Source of the DNA: a virus
Strand: one strand, 5' to 3'
IMG/VR virus record: IMGVR_UViG_3300025098_000044
Location: 1 to 59,241 of that record
Length of the DNA: 59,241 nucleotides
A model generated the notes under the pieces. The model ran no database searches, was not told where the DNA came from, and saw only the letters and a program-made list of their open reading frames with translations. The translations under genes and the position numbers were made by a program. Within the stretch, counting starts at the first letter, position 1. Each line of letters starts with the position of its first letter. This document shows positions 3,866 through 59,132 of the stretch, piece by piece.

Positions 3866-6511
<2,646 letters not shown>

Positions 6512-20535: not shown

Positions 20536-22331
20536 GTACTTATTACGAAGAGAAGGTGGTAGACCCACCAGTGGGTGATCCAATACCTTTTAAATTAAAC
20601 TACTCACCCAGAGCTTATGAGTTACCAGGTCAACCTATCTCGGTAGATAAATCGGGTACAGTTGCGGCTAGACAAGTCGGGGGTGGGGTTCCCCGCAAAC
20701 CTTTTAGGGTTACCGCTATAACCGAAGCCGCCAAACCAGCCACAGTAACCGCGGGAGCTTTACCTGAAAAACCATTTAGTATTTCTGTACTTACCAGTGT
20801 TGACGCTCCTGACTCCGTAACCGTAGTCGCCGCTCCTCGTAAACCAAATACAGTTTCAGTCCAAGCTGATCCTATTAAACCCGCAAGCGTAACTGCGGAT
20901 GCGATGCCTTTTGCCCCTACTTCCGTAGTTGCAGAATCAGATCCTAAAAAACCTATATCTGTAGATGCTGATTATATACCTCATGCACCCGCAAGTGTAA
21001 CTGCGGATGCGATACCTTTTGCCCCTACTTCCGTAGTTGCAGAATCAGATCCTAAAAAACCTATATCTGTAGATGCTGATTATATACCTCATGCACCGGC
21101 TATCGTTGAAGTAAACGCAATGCCTATTGCTCCTGTTGGCGTTGCAGCTTTTTCTGATCCCAAAAAACCTATATCTGTAGATGCTGATTATATACCTTAT
21201 GCTCCTTCATCCGTAGATGCCGATTACATCCCCTATGCACCGTCTGTTGTATCCGTTAATGCAGATCCTAAACAACCTTTAACAGTAGACGCCGATTACA
21301 TACCTTACGGCCCAGCATCAGTTTCAGCTGGCCAGGTACCAACCGTTCCTTCTTTAGTAGAAGCCGGCTTAATCCCCGAAGCTCCATCCACAGTTTCCGT
21401 ACTAGCAGCTCCTAGACAACCTAGCCTAGCCTATGCATTTGAGCCGTTTGTTGTAGAAATAATGGAAACAGAAGCTGAGATTAGGGCTAGACCTGCTAGT
21501 ACGCCCGAAGGAACTGTTGCATTTGGAACAGACACTAAGAAACTATATGTGTTCAATCAAACAGGAATGGATTCATGGGGTGCATTTGCAGAAGACGGTT
21601 TCTTTAGAACATCTGCATATGTTCCAATGAAATCCGCAAGATTTGAGGGACATCCAACTAATGATTACGGTATTGCGACTAATATAAATAGATTAAACGG
21701 TAACACATGGACTAAGGAATCCCCCACCACAATGTCAGGGTTTTTAAAGTTTACCGGGTGGGGAGGTGATCCGTCACCTTTTGGTACTAGTGGATTGCAT
21801 CCGGGTACTACATGGAACCCTGCAAGGGGCTCGTATTCTGATGGATTTCATGTAAACTCATCGGGGCGAGCTTATATGTGGTTTGGAGGTGGTCAACGAT
21901 GGATAACTAAAGACTCTGTTGCTCTTTATTTAGTGCAAAACACTTGGTATCACTTTGCATATACTCACGACGGTTCAACTTTAAGATGTTTTTTAAATGG
22001 AGATGAGGTATTCCCATCAACTCCAAACCAAACTTCTAGAAGGATAGCAATTCCTCAAATTTATGTATCAAAAGGTCGTTGGAATCAATCAATGTTTGGA
22101 ATGGTGGATCAAGTAGCATTTTGGGACAGTGTTTTAGATCAAACCACAATACAGAGTATCGCTAGTGGCGACAGAAACACCACCCTTACATACAATCCGT
22201 TAGCTTACTACTCTATGGATACCGAATCCAACGACACAGTCCCTGATACAAGCGGAAACTCTCAGCCTGACATGTACATGATACAAGACAATGCATCGGG
22301 TGCTGATCTTGTAGAAGAGGAGCCTAACTAG
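20532..22331 (+). CDS. Repeat-stalk protein with LamG/concanavalin-like lectin domain
   Basis: A 599-residue protein starting at GTG 20532 (GTGA overlap). Residues ~1-300 are a long series of units of the form P-K-K-P-I-S-V-D-A-D-Y-I-P-x-A-P-x-S-V, predicted to form an extended stalk. Then comes GTVAFGTDTKKLYVFN, a phrase common at junctions in phage appendage proteins. The last ~200 residues resemble a LamG jelly-roll domain (NTWYHFAYTHDGSTLRCFLN, QVAFWDSVLDQTTIQSIASG, YNPLAYYSMD). A surface-binding appendage is the best reading. Which glycan it binds cannot be told. Confidence 0.7.
   Translation: MSTYYEEKVVDPPVGDPIPFKLNYSPRAYELPGQPISVDKSGTVAARQVGGGVPRKPFRVTAITEAAKPATVTAGALPEKPFSISVLTSVDAPDSVTVVAAPRKPNTVSVQADPIKPASVTADAMPFAPTSVVAESDPKKPISVDADYIPHAPASVTADAIPFAPTSVVAESDPKKPISVDADYIPHAPAIVEVNAMPIAPVGVAAFSDPKKPISVDADYIPYAPSSVDADYIPYAPSVVSVNADPKQPLTVDADYIPYGPASVSAGQVPTVPSLVEAGLIPEAPSTVSVLAAPRQPSLAYAFEPFVVEIMETEAEIRARPASTPEGTVAFGTDTKKLYVFNQTGMDSWGAFAEDGFFRTSAYVPMKSARFEGHPTNDYGIATNINRLNGNTWTKESPTTMSGFLKFTGWGGDPSPFGTSGLHPGTTWNPARGSYSDGFHVNSSGRAYMWFGGGQRWITKDSVALYLVQNTWYHFAYTHDGSTLRCFLNGDEVFPSTPNQTSRRIAIPQIYVSKGRWNQSMFGMVDQVAFWDSVLDQTTIQSIASGDRNTTLTYNPLAYYSMDTESNDTVPDTSGNSQPDMYMIQDNASGADLVEEEPN
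20881..21096 (+). repeat. 108-bp tandem repeat in stalk gene
   Basis: Two almost identical in-frame 108-bp (36-codon) units begin at 20881 and 20989. Degenerate third and further copies are recognisable as the repeated PISVDADYIP phrase to about 21310. Near identity of the first two implies a recent duplication or ongoing homogenisation. Confidence 0.85.
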
Positions 22332-45248: not shown

Positions 45249-45590
45249 ATGGCAAATGTACTATTAAATTGGACAGCTCCCGCGGATACATCTAATATCA
45301 CGGGCATCGTAATCTTAAAAAAATCCGTATCAGCGGGCTCATCCGTTCCATCATGTGGCGATTTTATTCCAGATGAAAAAATTAGAGGTGCCAACACGGC
45401 AGCCGACTTAACGGATAGCACTGTTTCTCAAGTAGGCTCGGATATTACCGACCCGGCTACTGTCGCGGCAAATGGTTCCGTTACTGAAACTGGTGTAACG
45501 GCTGGGAGCTACTATTACGCAGCATTTTCTTACAACGCGGCGGGATATTCCCCTTGCGATGTGACGAATTCCGAGCTTGTAATTTCTTAA
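45249..45590 (+). CDS. Fibronectin type III-like single-domain protein
   Basis: A 112-residue-class protein (113 codons) with an Fn3-like outline: VLLNWTAPADTSNITGIVIL at the start, YYYAAFSYNAAGYSPCDVTN near the end. It is the last gene of the rightward late block. Its stop overlaps the integrase stop on the other strand by 4 bp. It resembles the Fn3-like starts of the proteins at 23490 and 42977, so these may be alternative decoration modules of one set. Confidence 0.65.
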   Translation: MANVLLNWTAPADTSNITGIVILKKSVSAGSSVPSCGDFIPDEKIRGANTAADLTDSTVSQVGSDITDPATVAANGSVTETGVTAGSYYYAAFSYNAAGYSPCDVTNSELVIS

Positions 45591-46741
45591 GCTACCCACA
45601 ATGCCAGCATATCTTTGCTTGGCATTAATTTGGCGTAGTATTTTGAAGTAACTTGAGGGCTTGTGTGTCTTAGATAACTCTGGGCTACATACAAGCCCTT
45701 AGTTGTTGCTAGATAAGATCCGTATAGCTTTCTTAACTCGTGCAAAGGGCTTTGTCGTGTCCAGCCGATATCTCTTAAAGAGTCAGTGACAACTTTCATC
45801 GTTTTTTCGGCAGTCCTAGCACGATCCGTTACAAGATAATCAAACCCCTCTGATTTATCTAAAATCTTTGAACCCCACGCGGCACTACCTGCCGTGTAAC
45901 CATCCATACCTCCTTTCGGTTTAAACTTACCTTCGGATTTAATACAGATAGCACAGCGATCGTCGTCAATATCTAACCAGTTCCGCTTAGCAAAAAAGAT
46001 CTCTTTCCGCCTCATACCAAAATGCAAGGCTAAAGCCATGATTACAAAATGATCACCGTCCACTTCATTCATTAATTTAAAAGTATCTTCGATTAACGAT
46101 GTCTCCGGTAATGTATAATCCTTCTTAACTCGGTTGAAAAATATCTCTTTCTTTAGGTAACTAAGACCTTCAAAACTCCAGCTCTCAGGATAATATGCCA
46201 TAGCGGTCTCGGAAAATACCGATTTAGCATTTCTAAGAAGAGTATTATATGATCTTTTCTTCTCACCTAGGGTAACTAAATCTTTAATACCCTCGACCCT
46301 ACGCTTTTTTTCTTCACGAAGCATCTTCTTAGTCAACTTCTTTAAAGGCAGTCCCATCGCTTCTTCGTCCGATAAACCTGTGACTCTATATAAACCTCTA
46401 CGATAACACTGAACCGTACGATCGCTTATACCGACTAAATTTTTATTTTCCTTAAGCATGTCGACAATCAACCCTAAGGTCGGCTGTATTCGGTCGTCGG
46501 GCTTAGGTGTTGGAGCGGGTTTACCTTGTTGTTTTTGTGGTGAATATTTTAATAAGGTTTCGGACACCGTATTAAAAACTAAGTAGGCATCGATCTCATC
46601 AGCCATCTCTTTAGCAATGTTTAAATCTTTTCCTAAATTAAAATACAGAGTTTTTTTATCTCTAACTATTCTGTAAGTCCAGTTTTTAGAACTTTGATTT
46701 CTTTTATATACGCGATTACCGCGTTTCGTTGTATACTTCAT
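45587..46741 (-). CDS. int: Tyrosine recombinase / integrase
   Basis: A 384-residue protein from ATG 46741, chosen because a good AAAAAAGG Shine-Dalgarno lies just upstream; an extended frame to 46804 lacks one. Catalytic residues of the tyrosine recombinase family are all visible: R244 in GMRRKE, H334 and R337 in HELRKLYGS, H359 in YLRHTSPQVTS and a Tyr in SKYYA (368/369). The N-terminal ~60 residues form a small basic domain fitting an arm-binding domain. It would integrate the phage at the attP-like block 115 bp upstream, making the phage temperate. Confidence 0.92.
   Translation of the reverse strand: MKYTTKRGNRVYKRNQSSKNWTYRIVRDKKTLYFNLGKDLNIAKEMADEIDAYLVFNTVSETLLKYSPQKQQGKPAPTPKPDDRIQPTLGLIVDMLKENKNLVGISDRTVQCYRRGLYRVTGLSDEEAMGLPLKKLTKKMLREEKKRRVEGIKDLVTLGEKKRSYNTLLRNAKSVFSETAMAYYPESWSFEGLSYLKKEIFFNRVKKDYTLPETSLIEDTFKLMNEVDGDHFVIMALALHFGMRRKEIFFAKRNWLDIDDDRCAICIKSEGKFKPKGGMDGYTAGSAAWGSKILDKSEGFDYLVTDRARTAEKTMKVVTDSLRDIGWTRQSPLHELRKLYGSYLATTKGLYVAQSYLRHTSPQVTSKYYAKLMPSKDMLALWVA
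45600..45626 (+). terminator. Hairpin at convergent late/int ends
   Basis: A perfect 7-bp stem (AATGCCA with TGGCATT) and a 13-nt loop, ten bases past the last late-gene stop and inside the 3' end of the integrase gene. It is followed by AATTT rather than a true T run, so it is at best a weak terminator for the late transcript. Confidence 0.3.
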
Positions 46742-46783
46742 GTTGTACCTTTTTTTGACCCTTTTATGTTGATGTTTAAACAC

Positions 46784-46847
46784 CACATATTGTGTAAGTG
46801 TCATTTAAAAGCCAGTAGTGGTGCGGATAACTACCACATGTTGTGGT
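46784..46847. promoter_or_regulatory. Two matching dyads upstream of integrase
   Basis: CACATATTGTG at 46784-46794 and ACCACATGTTGTGGT at 46833-46847 are perfect inverted repeats. Both fit the consensus CACAA(C/T)ATGTGG on the reverse strand. Their centres are 51 bp apart, close to five helical turns, so one face of the DNA is presented. They lie between the integrase start and the tRNA-Tyr block. They could be integrase/excisionase arm sites or repressor operators controlling int. Confidence 0.65.
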
Positions 46848-47519: not shown

Positions 47520-47919
47520 ATTTTTCGTACTGGCCTCTTGAATTTCTTTTGTGTGGGTACACATGTACAATAGTAGCACTTATATCTTTAACGGGTACCA
47601 TATACCAAGCATCTAGCTCGGCTATGTAAATCACTAAATACTGCACATTAGTATCTCGAAGATGTACACGGTCGCCCATACATGTCGCCTTTGCTTGATA
47701 TCGAATAGACTCTTCAGATAATCCGTGGTCTAGCTTACTCCCCGTTCTAACTTGAGTGATAATAGGCTTTCCGGTTTTTTTATTGATGATAACAATGTCA
47801 AAACAAGCGGGGTCGCCCCATGGAACACAAGGACACAAACCCCTATTGTAAGCTTCAAAACAAAAACGCAGTTCCCCCGCTGTACCTCGCTCGGAATTTA
47901 TTCCCGTTTTATAATCCAT
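47461..47919 (-). CDS. PD-(D/E)XK nuclease / Holliday-resolvase-like protein
   Basis: A 152-residue protein with the compact PD-(D/E)XK outline of archaeal-type resolvases and related homing-type endonucleases. E16 is in AGELRF, D41 in PACFDIVII, and the third strand is ITQVRTG (Q56-V57-R58). The usual (D/E/Q)xK reads QxR here, so the catalytic Lys is replaced by Arg. It is the last gene of the leftward replication block and overlaps the primase-helicase by 22 nt. A recombination-intermediate or nicking role is likely. Confidence 0.55.
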   Translation of the reverse strand: MDYKTGINSERGTAGELRFCFEAYNRGLCPCVPWGDPACFDIVIINKKTGKPIITQVRTGSKLDHGLSEESIRYQAKATCMGDRVHLRDTNVQYLVIYIAELDAWYMVPVKDISATIVHVYPHKRNSRGQYEKFRDRWKYFGFSSDDQVLLN

Positions 47920-49994
47920 CTATACACACCTTTTTTATCATCCCTTTTTAACCAAGGAAGACCCTTGGAAACCATGTGCTTTAAACCCCAACCCAATTTC
48001 TTAGGGTTCACATCACGAAGTAGTATCTCAACGCCTGTCACCTTACTCAGATGCTTCAAAAGTTCGGAACAGGTGCCAACCCACTCTTCCCCTTTCTCAA
48101 GTTGAGAATCTCTAAATATTTCCAAAAGTTCTACAATATGAGAATACCTGCCGTCAGCGTGAGAAAGAGCTTCAATCACAGGTGACAAATACGCTTTTAC
48201 TCCAAACCTAAAGTCTTTGTGCTCTTCGGGAACTTTATAATCGCGTAACCAAGCACAGAAGTGGGGTAACTCTTTTAACATGACATCAAGCCAACCTTCG
48301 TAAAAACCTGTAAATTTTTCACAGTTAAACACCATCAACTTATCGCGGGTCGACATATCTAAGTCGGGCAACATACGCATCGACATTGGATCGTTATTAC
48401 ATGTGATACTCAACCTACCACACCAAAACACACGACCTGATTTTTTGAATTTTGCATTAACAACAAAGGTATCGTTGGCTACAAACTCCTTAATCTTCGA
48501 TGAGAATTTAACATGTGACTCACCACTAGCTCCAGCCTCGTCATCCACAGTCCATAAACCACTTTCAAAAAGATGGTCATTGAACTCGGTTCTGCCTACT
48601 AAGTATTCTGAACACTTAATATGGCCGCCAAAAATTGAAGCCAGCAGTTTCGTGTTCCACATAGTCTTACCGCAGTTGCTCGGGCCTACCAGAATGTGGC
48701 AGTGGCCTTTCTTTGGTATGCCTTTTAAAAAACCTTGATATGCGTATGCCAACCAAGACTGCTCCCAAGGGAGTTGTTCTTTCCCGAACATACCTTCAGC
48801 CCACTCGGCTATAAAAGGAAAGTCTTCACCCCACTTTTTAGATTTTTCAACGGGATGTAGTGGTGCAATTCGAGAAGTGTTAAAGTAACGCTTACCTTCA
48901 AAGTTAACTATTACATTTTTATCAAATACAAAAGGTACTGCGGATTCAACACGCTTAACCGTTTGCACTTGATGCAATGCTTTATTCGCTTCGGATAAAA
49001 CATCACCACGCAGCCTCTGATTACTTAAATTATGACGAGCTTGAAGATCTAAAAACGCTTCTTCTTTAGCGGCCGTTATAAAGTTACCGGTGTCTTGCTC
49101 AATGTGGTAATTCTTACCATCGTACCAATACTTTTCAATACACTGACCGATCCTACCGATTTCAAACTGAGACACAAAACGGGATCCTAATATATCAGCC
49201 CAAGTATAGAATGGTTTGTCGGCAGAAAAACACTGCATCCCTTCAGCTCTTACTATACACGCGGTGGGGTTCCAATTGGGGTTAGCTCCTGGCCCCCAAA
49301 ACCAAATACCCCGTGAGCCTTCTTGAAAAGCCCCATTCCATAAATTTGGAAACTGTTTTTTAACTTCTTCATAGACGAGGTCTAGAGGTATAATAGTTCC
49401 ACGACCGTCAAAGTCATCCGCCCGACTAGTTTCGTATTGCCAATAATGTAAGGTACTTGAAGGGATTTTGATATCGCTAACCTTCTTCCAATCAATGCCT
49501 AGATTATAGTAAGTATGAGGGTTGGAAAATGCCGGTTTATCAAAACCACGACACAGCTTATCAAGTTCTAGCTCGGCTGAGATCCTTTGAAGCAACCTCT
49601 TAGTGGCTTTAGATCCGTGAAGCATAATTGGTTTTTCAAATTCCCATGTAGCGTGAACACCACCGGAATAAGATCGTGAGACGCGGGTACACGGGTATTG
49701 TAAATCGATCATCCGTTTCATTACATCCGTGAACTCATCATCACTTAACTTGGCATCCCAATCAGCGGTCACTGAGTGTAGGTACATCGGAGGGTTCTGA
49801 GAAGTAACCCGTTGGCTAGGGTCGACACCTTCGGAACCGCAGTACAATAAATACTTAGTTGTCGGGAAAGCTATCCACTGGCGAAACTTAGCTTTAGATT
49901 CAAATTTAGGAAGCTCGATCTCCTCATTCCAAGGTTCTTTTTCCTCGACTATATGAGCGGAAACATTAGGGATGCAAAAATACTTAGTAGACAT
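47898..49994 (-). CDS. Primase-helicase (AEP-like primase plus SF3-type helicase)
   Basis: A 698-residue protein from ATG 49994, preceded by GGAAGG seven bases upstream; an upstream in-frame TTG at 50009 is less likely. The N-terminal half resembles archaeo-eukaryotic-type primase/polymerases, with DWD at 78-80 and SGGVH at 110-114. The C-terminal half is an SF3/D5-like ATPase, with Walker A GPSNCGKT at 437-444, a Walker B-type LWTVDDEAG and the sensor-like ITCNNDP. It would prime synthesis and unwind the fork for the DNA polymerase encoded two genes upstream. It overlaps the kinase gene by 11 nt. Confidence 0.8.
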   Translation of the reverse strand: MSTKYFCIPNVSAHIVEEKEPWNEEIELPKFESKAKFRQWIAFPTTKYLLYCGSEGVDPSQRVTSQNPPMYLHSVTADWDAKLSDDEFTDVMKRMIDLQYPCTRVSRSYSGGVHATWEFEKPIMLHGSKATKRLLQRISAELELDKLCRGFDKPAFSNPHTYYNLGIDWKKVSDIKIPSSTLHYWQYETSRADDFDGRGTIIPLDLVYEEVKKQFPNLWNGAFQEGSRGIWFWGPGANPNWNPTACIVRAEGMQCFSADKPFYTWADILGSRFVSQFEIGRIGQCIEKYWYDGKNYHIEQDTGNFITAAKEEAFLDLQARHNLSNQRLRGDVLSEANKALHQVQTVKRVESAVPFVFDKNVIVNFEGKRYFNTSRIAPLHPVEKSKKWGEDFPFIAEWAEGMFGKEQLPWEQSWLAYAYQGFLKGIPKKGHCHILVGPSNCGKTMWNTKLLASIFGGHIKCSEYLVGRTEFNDHLFESGLWTVDDEAGASGESHVKFSSKIKEFVANDTFVVNAKFKKSGRVFWCGRLSITCNNDPMSMRMLPDLDMSTRDKLMVFNCEKFTGFYEGWLDVMLKELPHFCAWLRDYKVPEEHKDFRFGVKAYLSPVIEALSHADGRYSHIVELLEIFRDSQLEKGEEWVGTCSELLKHLSKVTGVEILLRDVNPKKLGWGLKHMVSKGLPWLKRDDKKGVYRWIIKRE

Positions 49995-50544
49995 TAGACA
50001 TCCTTCCAACTTCGAGTTTATGTATCAATGCCTCGACTGCTAAAACAAGATCGCTCTCATAGCATGAAACATTTTTAAATTGATAATCAATCAAATGCTC
50101 AGCTATTCCTTGCTCAGAAGGGTGGGGGTCTTTTTCAGCATAGTATGATTCATCCCTGACAACCTCTACTATCACTCCTCCCTCTTCTTGAATAGCCTCA
50201 GCCTCGTTGTTAAAGCGTACATCATCAATGATTACATTGTCCATAGCATCGCCTCGGAAACGCTCTATTAAATGGTCAATCCATATTGTCTGCGACACAC
50301 ATTCTCTACCCCATGCCGTACCCAAACTCTGGAGTAACTGTCTTGGCGTTTTATATCCGAACACCCAATTAGTACCATTTTCTTTAAGTTTCGGGTCGTT
50401 AAGCATGTCTTTGGGGATGCCTAATGCGTTTAACATATCTCTAAGAGGGTCTGCAAAACTCATGGTATTATAACCATAAGGCTCCCCCGCTTTTGCCACG
50501 GATGATTTTCCGCAACCTTTTCTACCACACAATCCTATTATCAT
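49984..50544 (-). CDS. Deoxynucleoside monophosphate kinase
   Basis: A 186-residue P-loop kinase. The N-terminus IIGLCGRKGCGKSSVAKA contains the Walker A motif (residues 7-15). SFADPLRDMLNALG and NVIIDDVRFNNEAEAI match the layout of phage dNMP kinases, which phosphorylate dNMPs to dNDPs for replication. A strong AAAGGCGAG precedes the ATG. It sits between polymerase and primase-helicase, linking nucleotide supply to replication. Confidence 0.8.
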   Translation of the reverse strand: MIIGLCGRKGCGKSSVAKAGEPYGYNTMSFADPLRDMLNALGIPKDMLNDPKLKENGTNWVFGYKTPRQLLQSLGTAWGRECVSQTIWIDHLIERFRGDAMDNVIIDDVRFNNEAEAIQEEGGVIVEVVRDESYYAEKDPHPSEQGIAEHLIDYQFKNVSCYESDLVLAVEALIHKLEVGRMSNVY

Positions 50545-50553
50545 ATCTCGCCT

Positions 50554-52476
50554 TTACTTTGTATACCTCTCCATAATCACGGTGTCCGAATCAAGTGGGA
50601 TATCGCACCATGTCGGAGGGGTAGTCATTATTCTTTTTATGTCTTTTTTGGCTTGGTGAAGTTTTTCATTTTCAACTTCAACAACAACCTCGTCGTGAAC
50701 AGTCATGACGATTTTGTAACCAAGCCTATCAATTTCAATCATGTGCTCCGAAAACAGATTCCGAGCGTTTGCTTGAACTTCATTTTGAAATAAGTTAGCC
50801 CCGTAATAGTTACTCCTACGGCCTCCGCCTTTTTGTAGCTTCGCTTTAGTCTGATCTTTTTCCTCGCGGATGTTCCAGAAATTAATCAAGCGACCATTCA
50901 TCAACTCAATTTGCATATCGTCACCATCATTTCGTGACTTATACTCCGAATCGTACTCACGCCATTTTTTGACAATTTTCGGGTTTTTATCACGGTAATC
51001 CATGACTTGAATAAATGCGTTTACCCAATGTTTTTTCGTAATAGAGTCGGCGGCATTAAACCATGCTAAATACTTTTTCTGATAAGAGTCTAAAAAGTTA
51101 GTAAATCTTTTCTTATCACCGAGGGCATACTCGCCTTCTAAGATTTTTAATTGCCCGAAAGATTGAACCGTCTCGTAAAATTTGTGCCAACCACAACCGT
51201 ATCCAAGTTGAAGGACACGGGTCTTAGCTAGCAAGTAGAGATCGGGGTCTTCATCTTTAAGTTTACCACCCGTCCACCCCATAGTATTTATAGCATGAGC
51301 CTCATACGGGTTGTAACCTTTGCGAACAAGATCAAGAGACTCAGTGTCGCCAACACACGCCCAAATTAAACGGGCTTCAATTTGACTAAGGTCACTTACA
51401 ATAAATGAATGACCATCGGGTGCTTTTATGCAGTTTCTGATATTAACACCGAACTTTGTGTCCCGTGGTAAATTCTGCATATTAAATCCACCAGCTCCAC
51501 TCCATCGGCCGGTGACTTCTGCACCGAAATACATTAAAGAGTAGGGCATCCTACCATGTATGTTGATACGGTCGTGCATCGTCTTTAAAGTCTTCAGATG
51601 CTTGTTGATGCGATTGTAGTTCTGCATATCCGCAACAAAATTTAATTTGTCTTTATACTTAGCCACCCACTTCTCCGTTTCCTTGTCTCCCTGGGCGAGG
51701 GACTTAGGTGGAGGGATACCTCTTTTGCGACATTCTAATGCCAAGGCTTTCTTGGAATATACTACATAAGGTTTTTTAGTGTCGGGGTCGATTTGATCGT
51801 ACCAAGGAAGATTTCTTTTAGCCTCCCATAAAGCCTTTTCCAGTTTATCAATTCCCGCCTCGACGGTGGGCTCGCATATTTTAACACCCTCCTCGCCCAT
51901 TCTTATTGTTAAATCTTCAAGCTCAAGTTCGATCTCGGGAATCTGTGGGTACAAATGTTCTAACAGTCTCCACTCGAGAACTGCATCTTGTTTCGCGTAA
52001 TTTACTACATCATCCCATTTACCTTCCGCTTTTATATCTTCGGGAGTCTTACCTTTCATGTAATCTCTTACTTCTTTTGACATGTCCTCATCAAATGCAC
52101 CCCGCATCGCATCTTGAAGACTACGACCAAGCTGCAAATAACAAGACATTGCGGAAGTATCGTGCCATCCTTTGATTTCGATATCGGGCATAAGACCCAT
52201 CTCGATTGCTTTAAGGGTGACGGGATAATCGAATCCTCTATTATGGGCTACGGCAATCCTACCTTCGAGCCTACCCCAATCAAACTCTCGGGGGTCACCC
52301 GCCCAAGATTCGTCTTTCCCGCCACCCCAAGCTAATCCCACGAGATAAGGATGAAATCGTTCGTGCTTACAGTACTCCCAAGTAGTTGTACCTTTTATTG
52401 TACAGTCTTTGTCATAGTAGGTTTCCCAGTCTATGACGAAATAGTTATCTTTTAAAAATTGTCTTCTCGTGGTCAT
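50554..52476 (-). CDS. Family A DNA polymerase with 3'-5' exonuclease
   Basis: A 640-residue T7/Pol I-type enzyme. The exonuclease domain is intact: D16/E18 in VIDWETYY, AHNRGFD, and YAKQDA. Polymerase motif A is VSDLSQIEARL (~357), motif B AKTRVLQLGYGCGW (~412) and motif C TVHDEVVVEV (~592). The residue matching E. coli Phe762 is Leu, a state linked in viral family A polymerases with temperate lifestyle, which agrees with the integrase. The position matching Arg754 appears to be Tyr. No SD is visible before the ATG. Confidence 0.92.
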   Translation of the reverse strand: MTTRRQFLKDNYFVIDWETYYDKDCTIKGTTTWEYCKHERFHPYLVGLAWGGGKDESWAGDPREFDWGRLEGRIAVAHNRGFDYPVTLKAIEMGLMPDIEIKGWHDTSAMSCYLQLGRSLQDAMRGAFDEDMSKEVRDYMKGKTPEDIKAEGKWDDVVNYAKQDAVLEWRLLEHLYPQIPEIELELEDLTIRMGEEGVKICEPTVEAGIDKLEKALWEAKRNLPWYDQIDPDTKKPYVVYSKKALALECRKRGIPPPKSLAQGDKETEKWVAKYKDKLNFVADMQNYNRINKHLKTLKTMHDRINIHGRMPYSLMYFGAEVTGRWSGAGGFNMQNLPRDTKFGVNIRNCIKAPDGHSFIVSDLSQIEARLIWACVGDTESLDLVRKGYNPYEAHAINTMGWTGGKLKDEDPDLYLLAKTRVLQLGYGCGWHKFYETVQSFGQLKILEGEYALGDKKRFTNFLDSYQKKYLAWFNAADSITKKHWVNAFIQVMDYRDKNPKIVKKWREYDSEYKSRNDGDDMQIELMNGRLINFWNIREEKDQTKAKLQKGGGRRSNYYGANLFQNEVQANARNLFSEHMIEIDRLGYKIVMTVHDEVVVEVENEKLHQAKKDIKRIMTTPPTWCDIPLDSDTVIMERYTK

Positions 52477-55061: not shown

Positions 55062-56411
55062 TTATACAAAAATTGGATTAAGTTCGTCATCGTTTATTAA
55101 ATCTAAATGGTTAAGTTTCTTTTTAACGGCTGCACAGACACGCATCTCAATGCTTCCGGCTGCAAATATTATTTTCTGAATGGCGGGACTCTTGGAGCCT
55201 GCTCTGTGAATTCTACCCAAGGTCTGTCTAAGCTCAATCGCACTGAAACCTGGACTTATTAATGAGACTCTTGGATGATTGCCATGAGTGTCATGTAAGC
55301 TGATACCAACACCGCCCGCTTGAATCATACAAATAATAATCCTAGCCTCGTCCCGCTGAAATCTGTTTATATGCACTTCCCTTACATCGTCCGCCTGACC
55401 ACCCTCTATTATGGAAACCATACAAAGGTCGCTGATACGCTGGGCGATGGCCTCAAGAGTGGCTTTGAAATTTACAAATATAGCAACACTACTTCCCTCA
55501 GCATAAGCATCATGAGCCAGCTCTACAAAAGTTGGTACCTTCATTAGCTCAATCTGCTGACGAGCCCTTAGCTGAACGGTTAATGGATTCTCATCCTCAT
55601 CCTGATCAACCTTTTCCTGTAAAGCCTCAAGCTCTGCCGCCATGTTGTGGTAAATAGAATCTATATCCTCATCCAAACTATAACCATCGGGGATAATTAA
55701 ATTTTCGGGAAAAGTCCCCTTGGGCAAATCCGCAATCCGGATACGGGAACCATACCCCTCATAGATATGTTTATGAAATCTCTTTAGCACCGGCTTAGGG
55801 TTTCGGAACTCTAGGGAGAAGCGGCCTTTCTTACACCCATTTTTCTGACACCAGTTCCACCAGTCCTTACCGCTATGCATGTCGAGGGCATAACCCATCG
55901 CCCGCATCTCCAACGGATTTGAGCAACTAGTGGCTCCGAGTAGGAGTATCCGAAACCCTAAGGCTTTGGCACTAATGAGTATCTTAGAATTTAGAGACTT
56001 ATGCCCTTTCATCCTATGATCCTCATCAAAAATAATTAACATCTTATCGGGATCCAATGTCTTCCACCGAAAGAATCCACGCTTGGGTATCCAACCCCAA
56101 TCAGTCTTACCACCACGCAACTTCTCATAATTAATTACATAGTTTATATTCTGATTAAAATTTAACATCCATTCCTGCCACGCGGGAATAACACTCTTCG
56201 GGCAAACAACAAAAGGTTCAAGCCCAAGTCGCCTCGCAACTTCCATCGCAATCACAGTCTTCCCGGTCCCGGTATCACTACCATCCTTAGCCACACCATG
56301 TGCCTTAATACTTTGAGTAAGATTATCGCAATGATCCTTCTGCCAATCGTAAAGCTCAGGAACAAGCTTGTTCTTAGTACTCTGCCTAATCATACCTTCT
56401 ATAGTGCTCAA
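55062..56411 (-). CDS. SNF2-like superfamily 2 DNA helicase/ATPase
   Basis: A 449-residue SF2 helicase. Motif I is SDTGTGKT (residues 45-52), motif II LIIFDEDH (~132-139), motif III LLLGATSC, and the C-terminal lobe ends with motif VI QTLGRIHRAG (~394). A DEDH rather than DEAH Walker B is normal for SNF2-like phage enzymes. The start is TTG 56411, supported by GAGGAG eight bases upstream and a TTGA overlap with the sigma4-like gene. It probably remodels replication or recombination intermediates. Confidence 0.8.
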   Translation of the reverse strand: MSTIEGMIRQSTKNKLVPELYDWQKDHCDNLTQSIKAHGVAKDGSDTGTGKTVIAMEVARRLGLEPFVVCPKSVIPAWQEWMLNFNQNINYVINYEKLRGGKTDWGWIPKRGFFRWKTLDPDKMLIIFDEDHRMKGHKSLNSKILISAKALGFRILLLGATSCSNPLEMRAMGYALDMHSGKDWWNWCQKNGCKKGRFSLEFRNPKPVLKRFHKHIYEGYGSRIRIADLPKGTFPENLIIPDGYSLDEDIDSIYHNMAAELEALQEKVDQDEDENPLTVQLRARQQIELMKVPTFVELAHDAYAEGSSVAIFVNFKATLEAIAQRISDLCMVSIIEGGQADDVREVHINRFQRDEARIIICMIQAGGVGISLHDTHGNHPRVSLISPGFSAIELRQTLGRIHRAGSKSPAIQKIIFAAGSIEMRVCAAVKKKLNHLDLINDDELNPIFV

Positions 56412-57429: not shown

Positions 57430-57870
57430 TCAATTATGTTTTACGGTTTTAGCATAATTTAATACTAACAAAGCATCACATGTAGCATTTGTAATACCTT
57501 TCAATGCGGGATACATACGAATCGCATTATCCTTTAAAATCCTTTTCCTTTGAGCGTAACTCAATTTGGGACGGATCCCCGACAAACCCTTCTGCCATTT
57601 CTTAGGCGATACGAGCTCCACCGGAAAGGCAAAAGCCCGGCAAGCACCCATTATAAATCCAAAGTTATAACCTAGCTTAAAAGAAGAAGAATTACTTGTT
57701 GCAGAGCTAACAAATACGGGAACATCTTCCACAAATATGCGAGTCTTGCGGTCAAAATTTTCTATGATTTTCAGATAATCAGATTCAGTTGTAAATTTAT
57801 CAAGGTAGATATCCTCACCATCGTAGTAAGCAACACCACCACCCTTCCCTGGATCAAATGCAGCTATCAT
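57430..57870 (-). CDS. RuvC-like Holliday junction resolvase
   Basis: A 146-residue protein of the RuvC/RNase H-fold resolvase group. D6 is in AAFDPGKGGG, E48 in IFVEDVP, SPKKWQKGL is in the middle, and D132 in ATCDALLVLNYA. These match the acidic catalytic set of phage and poxvirus RuvC-like enzymes, which cut four-way junctions before packaging. AGGG precedes the ATG, which overlaps the RHH gene stop (ATGA). Confidence 0.75.
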   Translation of the reverse strand: MIAAFDPGKGGGVAYYDGEDIYLDKFTTESDYLKIIENFDRKTRIFVEDVPVFVSSATSNSSSFKLGYNFGFIMGACRAFAFPVELVSPKKWQKGLSGIRPKLSYAQRKRILKDNAIRMYPALKGITNATCDALLVLNYAKTVKHN

Positions 57871-58049
57871 TTCCCTATGATCTCTAGCTGACGCTCGAGC
57901 TTCTTATTACGCTCCCGTCGCTCCAACTCCCTACGAATAGCCTCTCTAGCTATCTGAGAACGCGTTGTCCCAGCATCCTCTGCCTCTTTAGAGAGCTTGC
58001 CGTCCGTATCGTCGTCAAGACGAATGTTGAGTTGTGTTACCCATCTCAT
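57867..58049 (-). CDS. Ribbon-helix-helix regulator (leftward)
   Basis: A 60-residue protein from ATG 58049, the start that leaves a clean RHH: VTQLNIRLDDDTDGKLSKEA (ribbon and first helix), TTRSQIAREAIRRELERRER (second helix), then a basic helical tail. The open frame runs further upstream, but that part is hydrophobic, non-conserved-looking and crosses the regulatory region. RHH proteins of the Arc/CopG type bind operator dyads as dimers. It diverges from a second RHH gene across a 129-bp region holding a dyad. Confidence 0.75.
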   Translation of the reverse strand: MRWVTQLNIRLDDDTDGKLSKEAEDAGTTRSQIAREAIRRELERRERNKKLERQLEIIGK

Positions 58050-58093
58050 AGGCCATAGTATCATTGGTCGTCGGTCGTAGGGCAAAGAAAAGT

Positions 58094-58121
58094 TTGATAA
58101 ACACAATATTTTGTATATCAA
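58094..58121. promoter_or_regulatory. 28-bp operator-like dyad
   Basis: TTGATA at 58094-58099 pairs with TATCAA at 58116-58121 around a central AATATT. 24 of 28 positions are symmetrical. It is centred between the divergent RHH genes and ends 3 bp before the rightward -35. Its arms and length suit binding by RHH dimers or tetramers. Confidence 0.75.
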
Positions 58122-58124
58122 TAG

Positions 58125-58152
58125 TTGACATATGTATAAACTATGGTGTAAA
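58125..58152 (+). promoter_or_regulatory. Rightward promoter of RHH gene
   Basis: A perfect -35 TTGACA at 58125-58130, a 16-bp spacer and TGTAAA at 58147-58152 as a weak -10. It lies 26 bp before ATG 58178. The adjoining dyad suggests repression by one or both RHH proteins. Confidence 0.6.
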
Positions 58153-58177: not shown

Positions 58178-58471
58178 ATGAAAAAGACAATTAATTCAAA
58201 GGACGAGACGGCCGCTAAGGATATTACCTGTGCGGTTCGATTCAACCACAGCATGTATGAGCGCTTGAAAGAGACTGCTCATGACATGAACCTTTCCTTG
58301 TCCGATGTTATTCGGCAAGCGTTAGTAGACTACATGGAATCACACAGCAAATCATTACTGGAGAAAAAACTCGAGGAAATCGAGTTAAGAAAGAAAGTCA
58401 CTGAAGCGACGGCTAATGAAGATCAAAGTCTAAGAGACACTTTATTAGAATTGCTTAATAAGGCAAGCTAG
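58178..58471 (+). CDS. Ribbon-helix-helix regulator (rightward)
   Basis: A 97-residue protein from ATG 58178, chosen for the AAAGGAAAAA leader at SD distance; upstream in-frame codons cross the promoter. The RHH core is DITCAVRFNHSMYERLKETA and LSLSDVIRQALVDYMESHSK, followed by a ~35-residue charged helix that may oligomerise. Together with the divergent RHH gene it has the layout of a two-repressor immunity region such as Arc/Mnt. It is the only gene reading toward the AT-rich repeat region. Confidence 0.75.
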   Translation: MKKTINSKDETAAKDITCAVRFNHSMYERLKETAHDMNLSLSDVIRQALVDYMESHSKSLLEKKLEEIELRKKVTEATANEDQSLRDTLLELLNKAS

Positions 58472-58859
58472 CAGTAGAATAAGTCAGAAAGGTGGCTTGG
58501 CGGCTTAACCAACGCGCTGTTGGAGGCAATTTCTTTGAATTATTGCGAATTATGGTTTAAAATGAAGAGTTTATGGTTTCTTAAAAAAAAACCATATTTC
58601 ATAAGTCGTTGATAATTCCTTATCTTATATTCCTATTTATTATTATATTGTTTATATATATATATTAATAGTAAAAGAAGAGAAGAGAAGAAAAAGAGGG
58701 TAGGATAAAAAGAAGATAAGAGGGATATAGAAGAGAGACTAAGAAAACAAAACCATAAAACCATATTTCTCCCTTAAATCGTTGCTTGACAACATGTTAG
58801 TTTCCAAATGGTTTCCATGGTTTTAAAAAAAACCATAAAGTCGATGTGGTGCGCTGGAT
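58472..58859. other. AT-rich iteron-like region, candidate replication origin
   Basis: No gene was found. Exact AAACCATA occurs at 58589, 58750, 58758 and 58830, and its complement TATGGTTT at 58551 and 58572. The copies at 58750 and 58758 are head-to-tail. One-mismatch copies lie near 58807 and 58816. Between them are an almost pure A/T stretch (about 58630-58670), suited to strand opening, and a long polypurine tract (about 58672-58750). A CCAAC/GTTGG hairpin at 58509-58523 may end the RHH transcript. Repeats plus an AT-rich element is the layout of an origin. Confidence 0.6.
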
Positions 58860-59132
58860 TTAACCCTTTTTTCGCTTAAAACTTCTATTCTTAGATTTAC
58901 TAACCGCTCTTAAGTTTTTCCTACTATTATCGGCCGTATTTCTATTTTTGTGGTCGACATCCTTGCCATCACCCTTGCGTACAACACCCGCTTTCGTCAT
59001 CTTGCGCCTTGCGGCGTTTCTTTGGGCCCTCCTCTTCTTCTGTCGAGGCTTCTTATGGTACTTGTCGTACTCGGATCTGTAGTTCCTTTTAGCAGGCTTC
59101 CTGCGCTTCGGTGCTTTTTTTCTTACTGGCAT
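58860..59132 (-). CDS. Small basic HNH-like protein
   Basis: A 90-residue, extremely basic protein. The first ~45 residues are Lys/Arg-rich. The C-terminal half has GKDVDHKNRNTADNSRKNLR then SKSKNRSFKRK, the D-H-x-N...N-x-x-N-L pattern of phage HNH-like small proteins often found near packaging genes. No zinc-ribbon cysteines are present, so catalytic activity is uncertain. If the genome is circularly closed, it would lie about 640 bp from the packaging genes at 534. Confidence 0.65.
   Translation of the reverse strand: MPVRKKAPKRRKPAKRNYRSEYDKYHKKPRQKKRRAQRNAARRKMTKAGVVRKGDGKDVDHKNRNTADNSRKNLRAVSKSKNRSFKRKKG

Follow-up and report, generated by a model that had tools for sequence, protein, structure and literature searches.

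We propose that positions 58551-58837 of the window, the whole 59,241-bp IMG/VR record that was analysed here, form an iteron origin of replication that the phage's own primase-helicase would read through its winged helix, a reading to which we assign a probability of roughly two in three. A cluster of short repeats occupies this interval; its dyad architecture is conserved in related phages, the iteron itself is replaced between them, and changes in the wing of the primase-helicase accompany the iteron types. This gives an uncultivated lineage of marine phages a candidate origin together with a candidate initiator.

Genome setting

The window encodes a terminase large subunit, a portal, a major head protein, an integrase, a family A polymerase, an SF2-type helicase, a RuvC-like resolvase and an SF3 helicase protein. 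It carries no terminal repeats, and a viral contig (G001) that is 99.87% identical to it over 30.9 kb extends 8.9 kb beyond its right end, so that the record is a partial phage genome and a circular window was rejected. Two relatives, G008 (68,875 bp) and G010, are circularly permuted maps, the ends of G008 lying about 50 bp apart in G010. Searches of 50,697 phage records, at the sensitivities used, found no close relative of the lineage; Klebsiella phage Klyazma was rejected as a relative, its match being confined to its HNH gene. A scan of genomes for hosts or prophages with the helicase alignment returned 0 loci and no prophage, and the SF3 alignment matched two MAG contigs (14.3 and 6.9 kb), which are perhaps stray phage contigs. 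The window integrase (45587-46804), unlike the rest of the replication module, has a detectable homolog in only one of the compared loci, L003. Tandem repeats within coding sequence occur at 5312-5541, 5705-5739 and 20879-21202 (111 bp x2.1, GCTCCG x5.8 and 108 bp x3, respectively), and beyond the element G001 (L026, 1553-8421) carries HATPase (rIIA-like), GP88, DUF932 and HhH glycosylase genes. The features used below are as follows.

47898..50009, minus strand: proposed initiator, 703 aa, PrimPol-like + SF3 helicase + C-terminal winged helix
47901..48092, minus strand: predicted C-terminal winged-helix domain (about residues 640-703), with the wing at about 47901-47954
50554..52476, minus strand: family A DNA polymerase, same replication module as the SF3 protein
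57867..58142, minus strand: RHH2, second ribbon-helix-helix gene, start codon uncertain
58178..58471, plus strand: RHH1, ribbon-helix-helix protein adjoining the element (rival binder)
58551..58558, minus strand: iteron, exact AAACCATA (exact-match count)
58572..58579, minus strand: iteron, exact AAACCATA, kept in L003 (exact-match count and L003 comparison)
58589..58596, plus strand: iteron, exact AAACCATA (exact-match count)
58602..58614, minus strand: motif B TATCAACGACTTA, fits the IHF consensus WATCAANNNNTTR, kept in relatives (motif scan)
58612..58749, no strand: core, an AT-rich half and then a purine-rich tract at about 58671-58746 (composition, alignment)
58637..58656, minus strand: degenerate remnant of the left tandem pair, ATGGTTTTATGGTTT in AAACCAT relatives (placed from alignment)
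58750..58757, plus strand: iteron AAACCATA, right tandem pair, copy 1 (exact match, 8-bp period)
58758..58765, plus strand: iteron AAACCATA, right tandem pair, copy 2 (exact match, 8-bp period)
58808..58814, minus strand: iteron, 7-mer copy AAACCAT (7-mer count)
58817..58823, minus strand: iteron, 7-mer copy AAACCAT (7-mer count)
58830..58837, plus strand: iteron, exact AAACCATA (exact-match count)
58860..59132, minus strand: HNH endonuclease gene, far side of the element

The repeat cluster

A sequence-only reading of this DNA had described six exact 8-mers in both orientations, two of them head to tail, with near copies, crowded beyond chance into a gene-free stretch, and each part of that description was borne out. 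An exact count gives seven copies of AAACCATA across the window, six of them within 58551-58837 and a lone seventh at 55415, with no similar cluster elsewhere. Since 3.49 copies (sd 1.92) are expected over the whole window, it is the clustering alone that is unusual. The copies at 58750 and 58758 stand head to tail with a period of 8 bp, and two further AAACCAT 7-mers lie at 58808(-) and 58817(-). This 7-mer occurs 25 times in the window against 12.4 expected, a count reached in 0 of 100 shuffles, and eight of the 25 lie inside the interval. No other 8-mer cluster of the record is as dense as this one, with its six copies in 287 bp; clusters in 60 Markov-3 simulated records never held more than four copies, nor did any of 3,000 simulated 287-bp stretches of local composition. 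The interval is free of genes, and the RHH1 and HNH genes converge upon it. The element is 72% A+T, and its two iteron sets (58551-58596 and 58750-58837) flank the AT-rich 58612-58749, as in origins of the SaPI/PICI type; an intact left tandem pair is missing and is degenerate in the alignment.

Conservation and replacement of the iterons

Scans of viral contigs with an exact 20-mer and with a gapped dyad pattern yielded eight more contigs besides G001 and the record of L003, in which repeats and core are kept and the spacer adjoining RHH1 has diverged. In all nine contigs matching the gapped pattern, which permitted gaps of 88-108 bp, tandem 8-bp pairs face each other 90-103 bp apart. A repeat cluster also lies beside the HNH gene in 13 of 13 distinct loci matched by an HNH signature, eleven with AAACCAT, one with AAAACTACA (L052) and one with AAAACGTA (L087), and a cluster search added a second AAAACGTA element (L138, from the record of L128). 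The distant relatives L058 and L060 carry iteron sets of CCCTAACA, and L134 carries sets of CCCTACCC; these three elements lie downstream of the SF3 gene, at about 1.0-1.1 kb, and are just 49-51% A+T, which counts against an origin. Five iteron types are found on one architecture, in which iteron sets, for the most part tandem 8-bp pairs, face each other in inverted orientation across a core and are accompanied by an IHF-consensus motif; the alignment shows an AT-rich stretch on one side to be common to most cores. The architecture persists while the iteron gets replaced.

Two-orientation 7-mer clusters number 41 in 148 sequences (1.9 Mb, overlaps included), and 36 of them are these elements when overlapping records are counted separately. 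No such cluster was found in the 18 kb searched of L135, an SF3 relative at 29%, which counts against an origin. Many of the SF3 loci are incomplete and do not include the stretch from helicase to HNH gene, and for this reason a missing cluster in them is not evidence. L061 has eight copies of GCTTACGA in both orientations at 5451-5860, upstream of a 41% helicase relative, and to judge from the repeats this array is possibly another iteron type. L087 bears an AGCACCA tandem array at 233-320, beyond the HNH gene and separate from its iteron element.

The IHF consensus WATCAANNNNTTR is at chance level across the window as a whole. It occurs 12 times in 16 elements (0.42 expected; present in 10 of 16), occurrences that are not independent and are partly shared by descent. 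IHF may have a role at the element.

The candidate initiator

The 703-aa protein was modelled with AF2 at a pLDDT of 84.7 and in this model ends in a winged helix, with a helix at residues 669-681 followed by the wing at 687-701. In Foldseek searches its helicase is nearest to NrS-1 PrimPol, then to D5/E5, ASFV PrimPol and the SaPI5 primase-helicase. The N-terminus aligns with a DYD/DWD motif, and the full-length Foldseek matches are PrimPol, D5 and E5; a Pfam primase match is absent. When the C-terminal domain is folded by itself, its matches are generic winged helices (best VIA Z 7.5), and no P4 origin-binding domain is among the Foldseek or VIA matches listed for it, an absence without evidential weight.

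All 9 AAACCAT records have the wing motif Y[GR]W and none of the 6 others does (20 records were tabulated, 15 with both an SF3 C-terminus and an element, the window and G001 being counted apart), a co-variation confounded with kinship, as G011 and G012 are relatives and G019 and G020 are nearly identical. Between L052 and L100 identity is 96-98% in PrimPol and helicase, 93% in the helices and only 59% in the wing, the AAACCAT type of L100 being predicted, with its element lying off the contig. Judged from these sequences, iteron changes track the C-terminal wing of the primase-SF3 helicase. In G007 (L129, 10001-12063) the SF3 gene reads with stop codons, perhaps through an assembly error or a frameshift.

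We infer the remaining steps, namely initiator binding, melting, the direction of replication and the part played by RHH1. The element would serve a temperate tailed phage as its iteron origin of replication, and the primase-SF3 helicase of this phage (47898-50009) would bind the 8-bp iterons with its C-terminal winged helix and assemble on the two facing iteron sets, presumably as two rings. It would then melt the AT-rich core and prime synthesis for the phage family A polymerase, while the flanking IHF-like site would bend the DNA. More tentatively, and with rather less than even confidence, we suggest that at least five iteron types share one scaffold and are rewritten mainly through changes in the wing, the recognition helix staying constant along with the TTTT half in three of the types. 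If this is true, a modular, allele-swapping origin would sort marine phages into replication compatibility groups, with pressure perhaps coming from co-infecting relatives or from origin-mimicking satellites.

GC skew

Cumulative GC skew was rejected as support for an origin. In the 69-kb relatives G007 and G008 it passes through the element without change of direction and turns elsewhere; in G008, whose element lies at 60.1 kb, it peaks at 44.6 kb and reaches its minimum near 68.8 kb. The apparent turn close to 58 kb of the window comes from a single 1-kb bin that contains a purine-rich tract. At 61-68 kb of G008 the skew is negative though most genes there are on the plus strand, indicating that it does not simply follow coding direction. 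The iteron-like origin of the sequence-only reading is partly supported: the lone cluster, its conservation with turnover and the co-variation of the primase-helicase speak for it, and the skew speaks against it. The distance between element and initiator gene in the window and the missing intact left tandem pair also weigh against an origin.

Alternative explanations

RHH1 is the next gene to the element, its ribbon KD[IV]TCAVR is near invariant, and ribbon-helix-helix proteins classically bind tandem short boxes. The element could on these grounds be a partition centromere or an operator, its 8-bp boxes bound by RHH1 for plasmid-prophage segregation or gene repression, yet we consider this unlikely. 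In L052 the iterons have changed to AAAACTACA with the RHH1 ribbon unchanged, and the RHH1 profile finds nothing in the L087, L138, L058, L060 and L134 loci, all of which have elements and show weak RHH2 matches only; both results weaken RHH1 as the iteron binder, and by sequence the SF3 protein appears to fit that role better. Moreover, both flanking genes have their 3' ends towards the interval, and a ParA-type ATPase was found in 0 of 5 records (control 14 of 14). A ParM-type NTPase search likewise gave 0 of 5, with a control that was itself silent. Among other initiators, a Rep_3 gene was found in 0 of 5 records, the control being positive in 2 of 14 genomes. TTWTNCACA is the DnaA box consensus, and the window holds seven matches to it, none within 58.5-58.9 kb.

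The integrase gene of the window invites comparison with a phage attachment site, in which the repeats would be integrase arm sites beside IHF sites; IHF-like sites and short arm repeats do occur in lambda-type attP. This reading is barely credible, for the integrase lies 12 kb from the element at the other end of the module, and the element is shared by loci without an integrase homolog. Some other cis element (a packaging site, a convergent terminator or an enhancer) or chance repeats would suit a position between convergent genes but are very improbable: 58551-58837 contains no terminator-like hairpin, the terminase genes are located elsewhere in the window, and chance repeats are excluded because the element is conserved with iteron turnover. 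Recognition of the origin as a large stem-loop instead of iterons, as proposed for pRN1, is a somewhat better prospect, though still a poor one. In the relatives the inner tandem pairs are inverted with respect to each other and enclose a loop of 90-103 nt, and PMC4234260 proposes stem-loop origins for primase-SF3-winged-helix proteins. Against this, the window is without an intact left arm, the outer copies, which run in both orientations, are not part of the stem, and the unit occurs as a repeat whose turnover is sequence-specific. The iteron origin is the likeliest reading of the element.

Comparison with known systems

The window element is best read as working like the PICI, SaPI and P4 origins, an interpretation by analogy. 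SaPI/PICI origins consist of two short-iteron sets flanking an AT-rich stretch (PMC6092414), the SaPI Rep helicase recognises iterons by its C-terminal domain (PMC7581432), and no other known bacterial replicon is said to share this organisation (PMC6092414). The window has a like arrangement of iterons, and its initiator would read them similarly. SaPIs and PICIs are, however, satellites with the origin just 3' of rep, whereas the window is a full tailed phage (portal, terminase large subunit, major head protein) whose element lies 5' of the initiator gene at a distance of 8.5 kb. Given these capsid genes and this position, the window element is not a PICI. P4, with ori/crr and alpha, offers a primase-helicase that binds origin repeats with a winged helix, as we propose for the window protein; according to PMC4234260, alpha has a Toprim primase, in contrast to the apparently PrimPol-like N-terminus here.

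In domain make-up the window protein resembles pRN1 ORF904 and the phage BIP-1 protein (AEP primase, SF3 helicase, winged helix). The same source describes pRN1 as lacking iteron structure and proposes stem-loop recognition for BIP-1 (PMC4234260), whereas the window has an iteron array. A repressor gene, orf56, is also part of pRN1; RHH1 matches the ORF56 family weakly, below cut-off. NrS-1 PrimPol, the nearest solved structure to the window helicase region, recognises an 8-nt motif, but the NrS-1 genome has two copies only and no array, and primase sites of the NrS-1 style were rejected for this reason. A tandem-motif query against phages gave weak matches only, and the available text of the literature consulted (including PMC6092414, PMC4234260, PMC7581432, PMC7145576, PMC8718748, PMC7102993 and PMC5862659) did not yield such an element in this kind of phage.

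What is new here is that a free-standing lineage of marine phages has an iteron alphabet that can be exchanged while the scaffold stays fixed. The finding extends to a full phage an organisation that had been reported as peculiar to chromosomal islands, and pairs it with a proposed PrimPol-type initiator, a kind of protein whose origin had been proposed to be a stem-loop. The iteron and wing variants form a natural series well suited to working out how these initiators read DNA.
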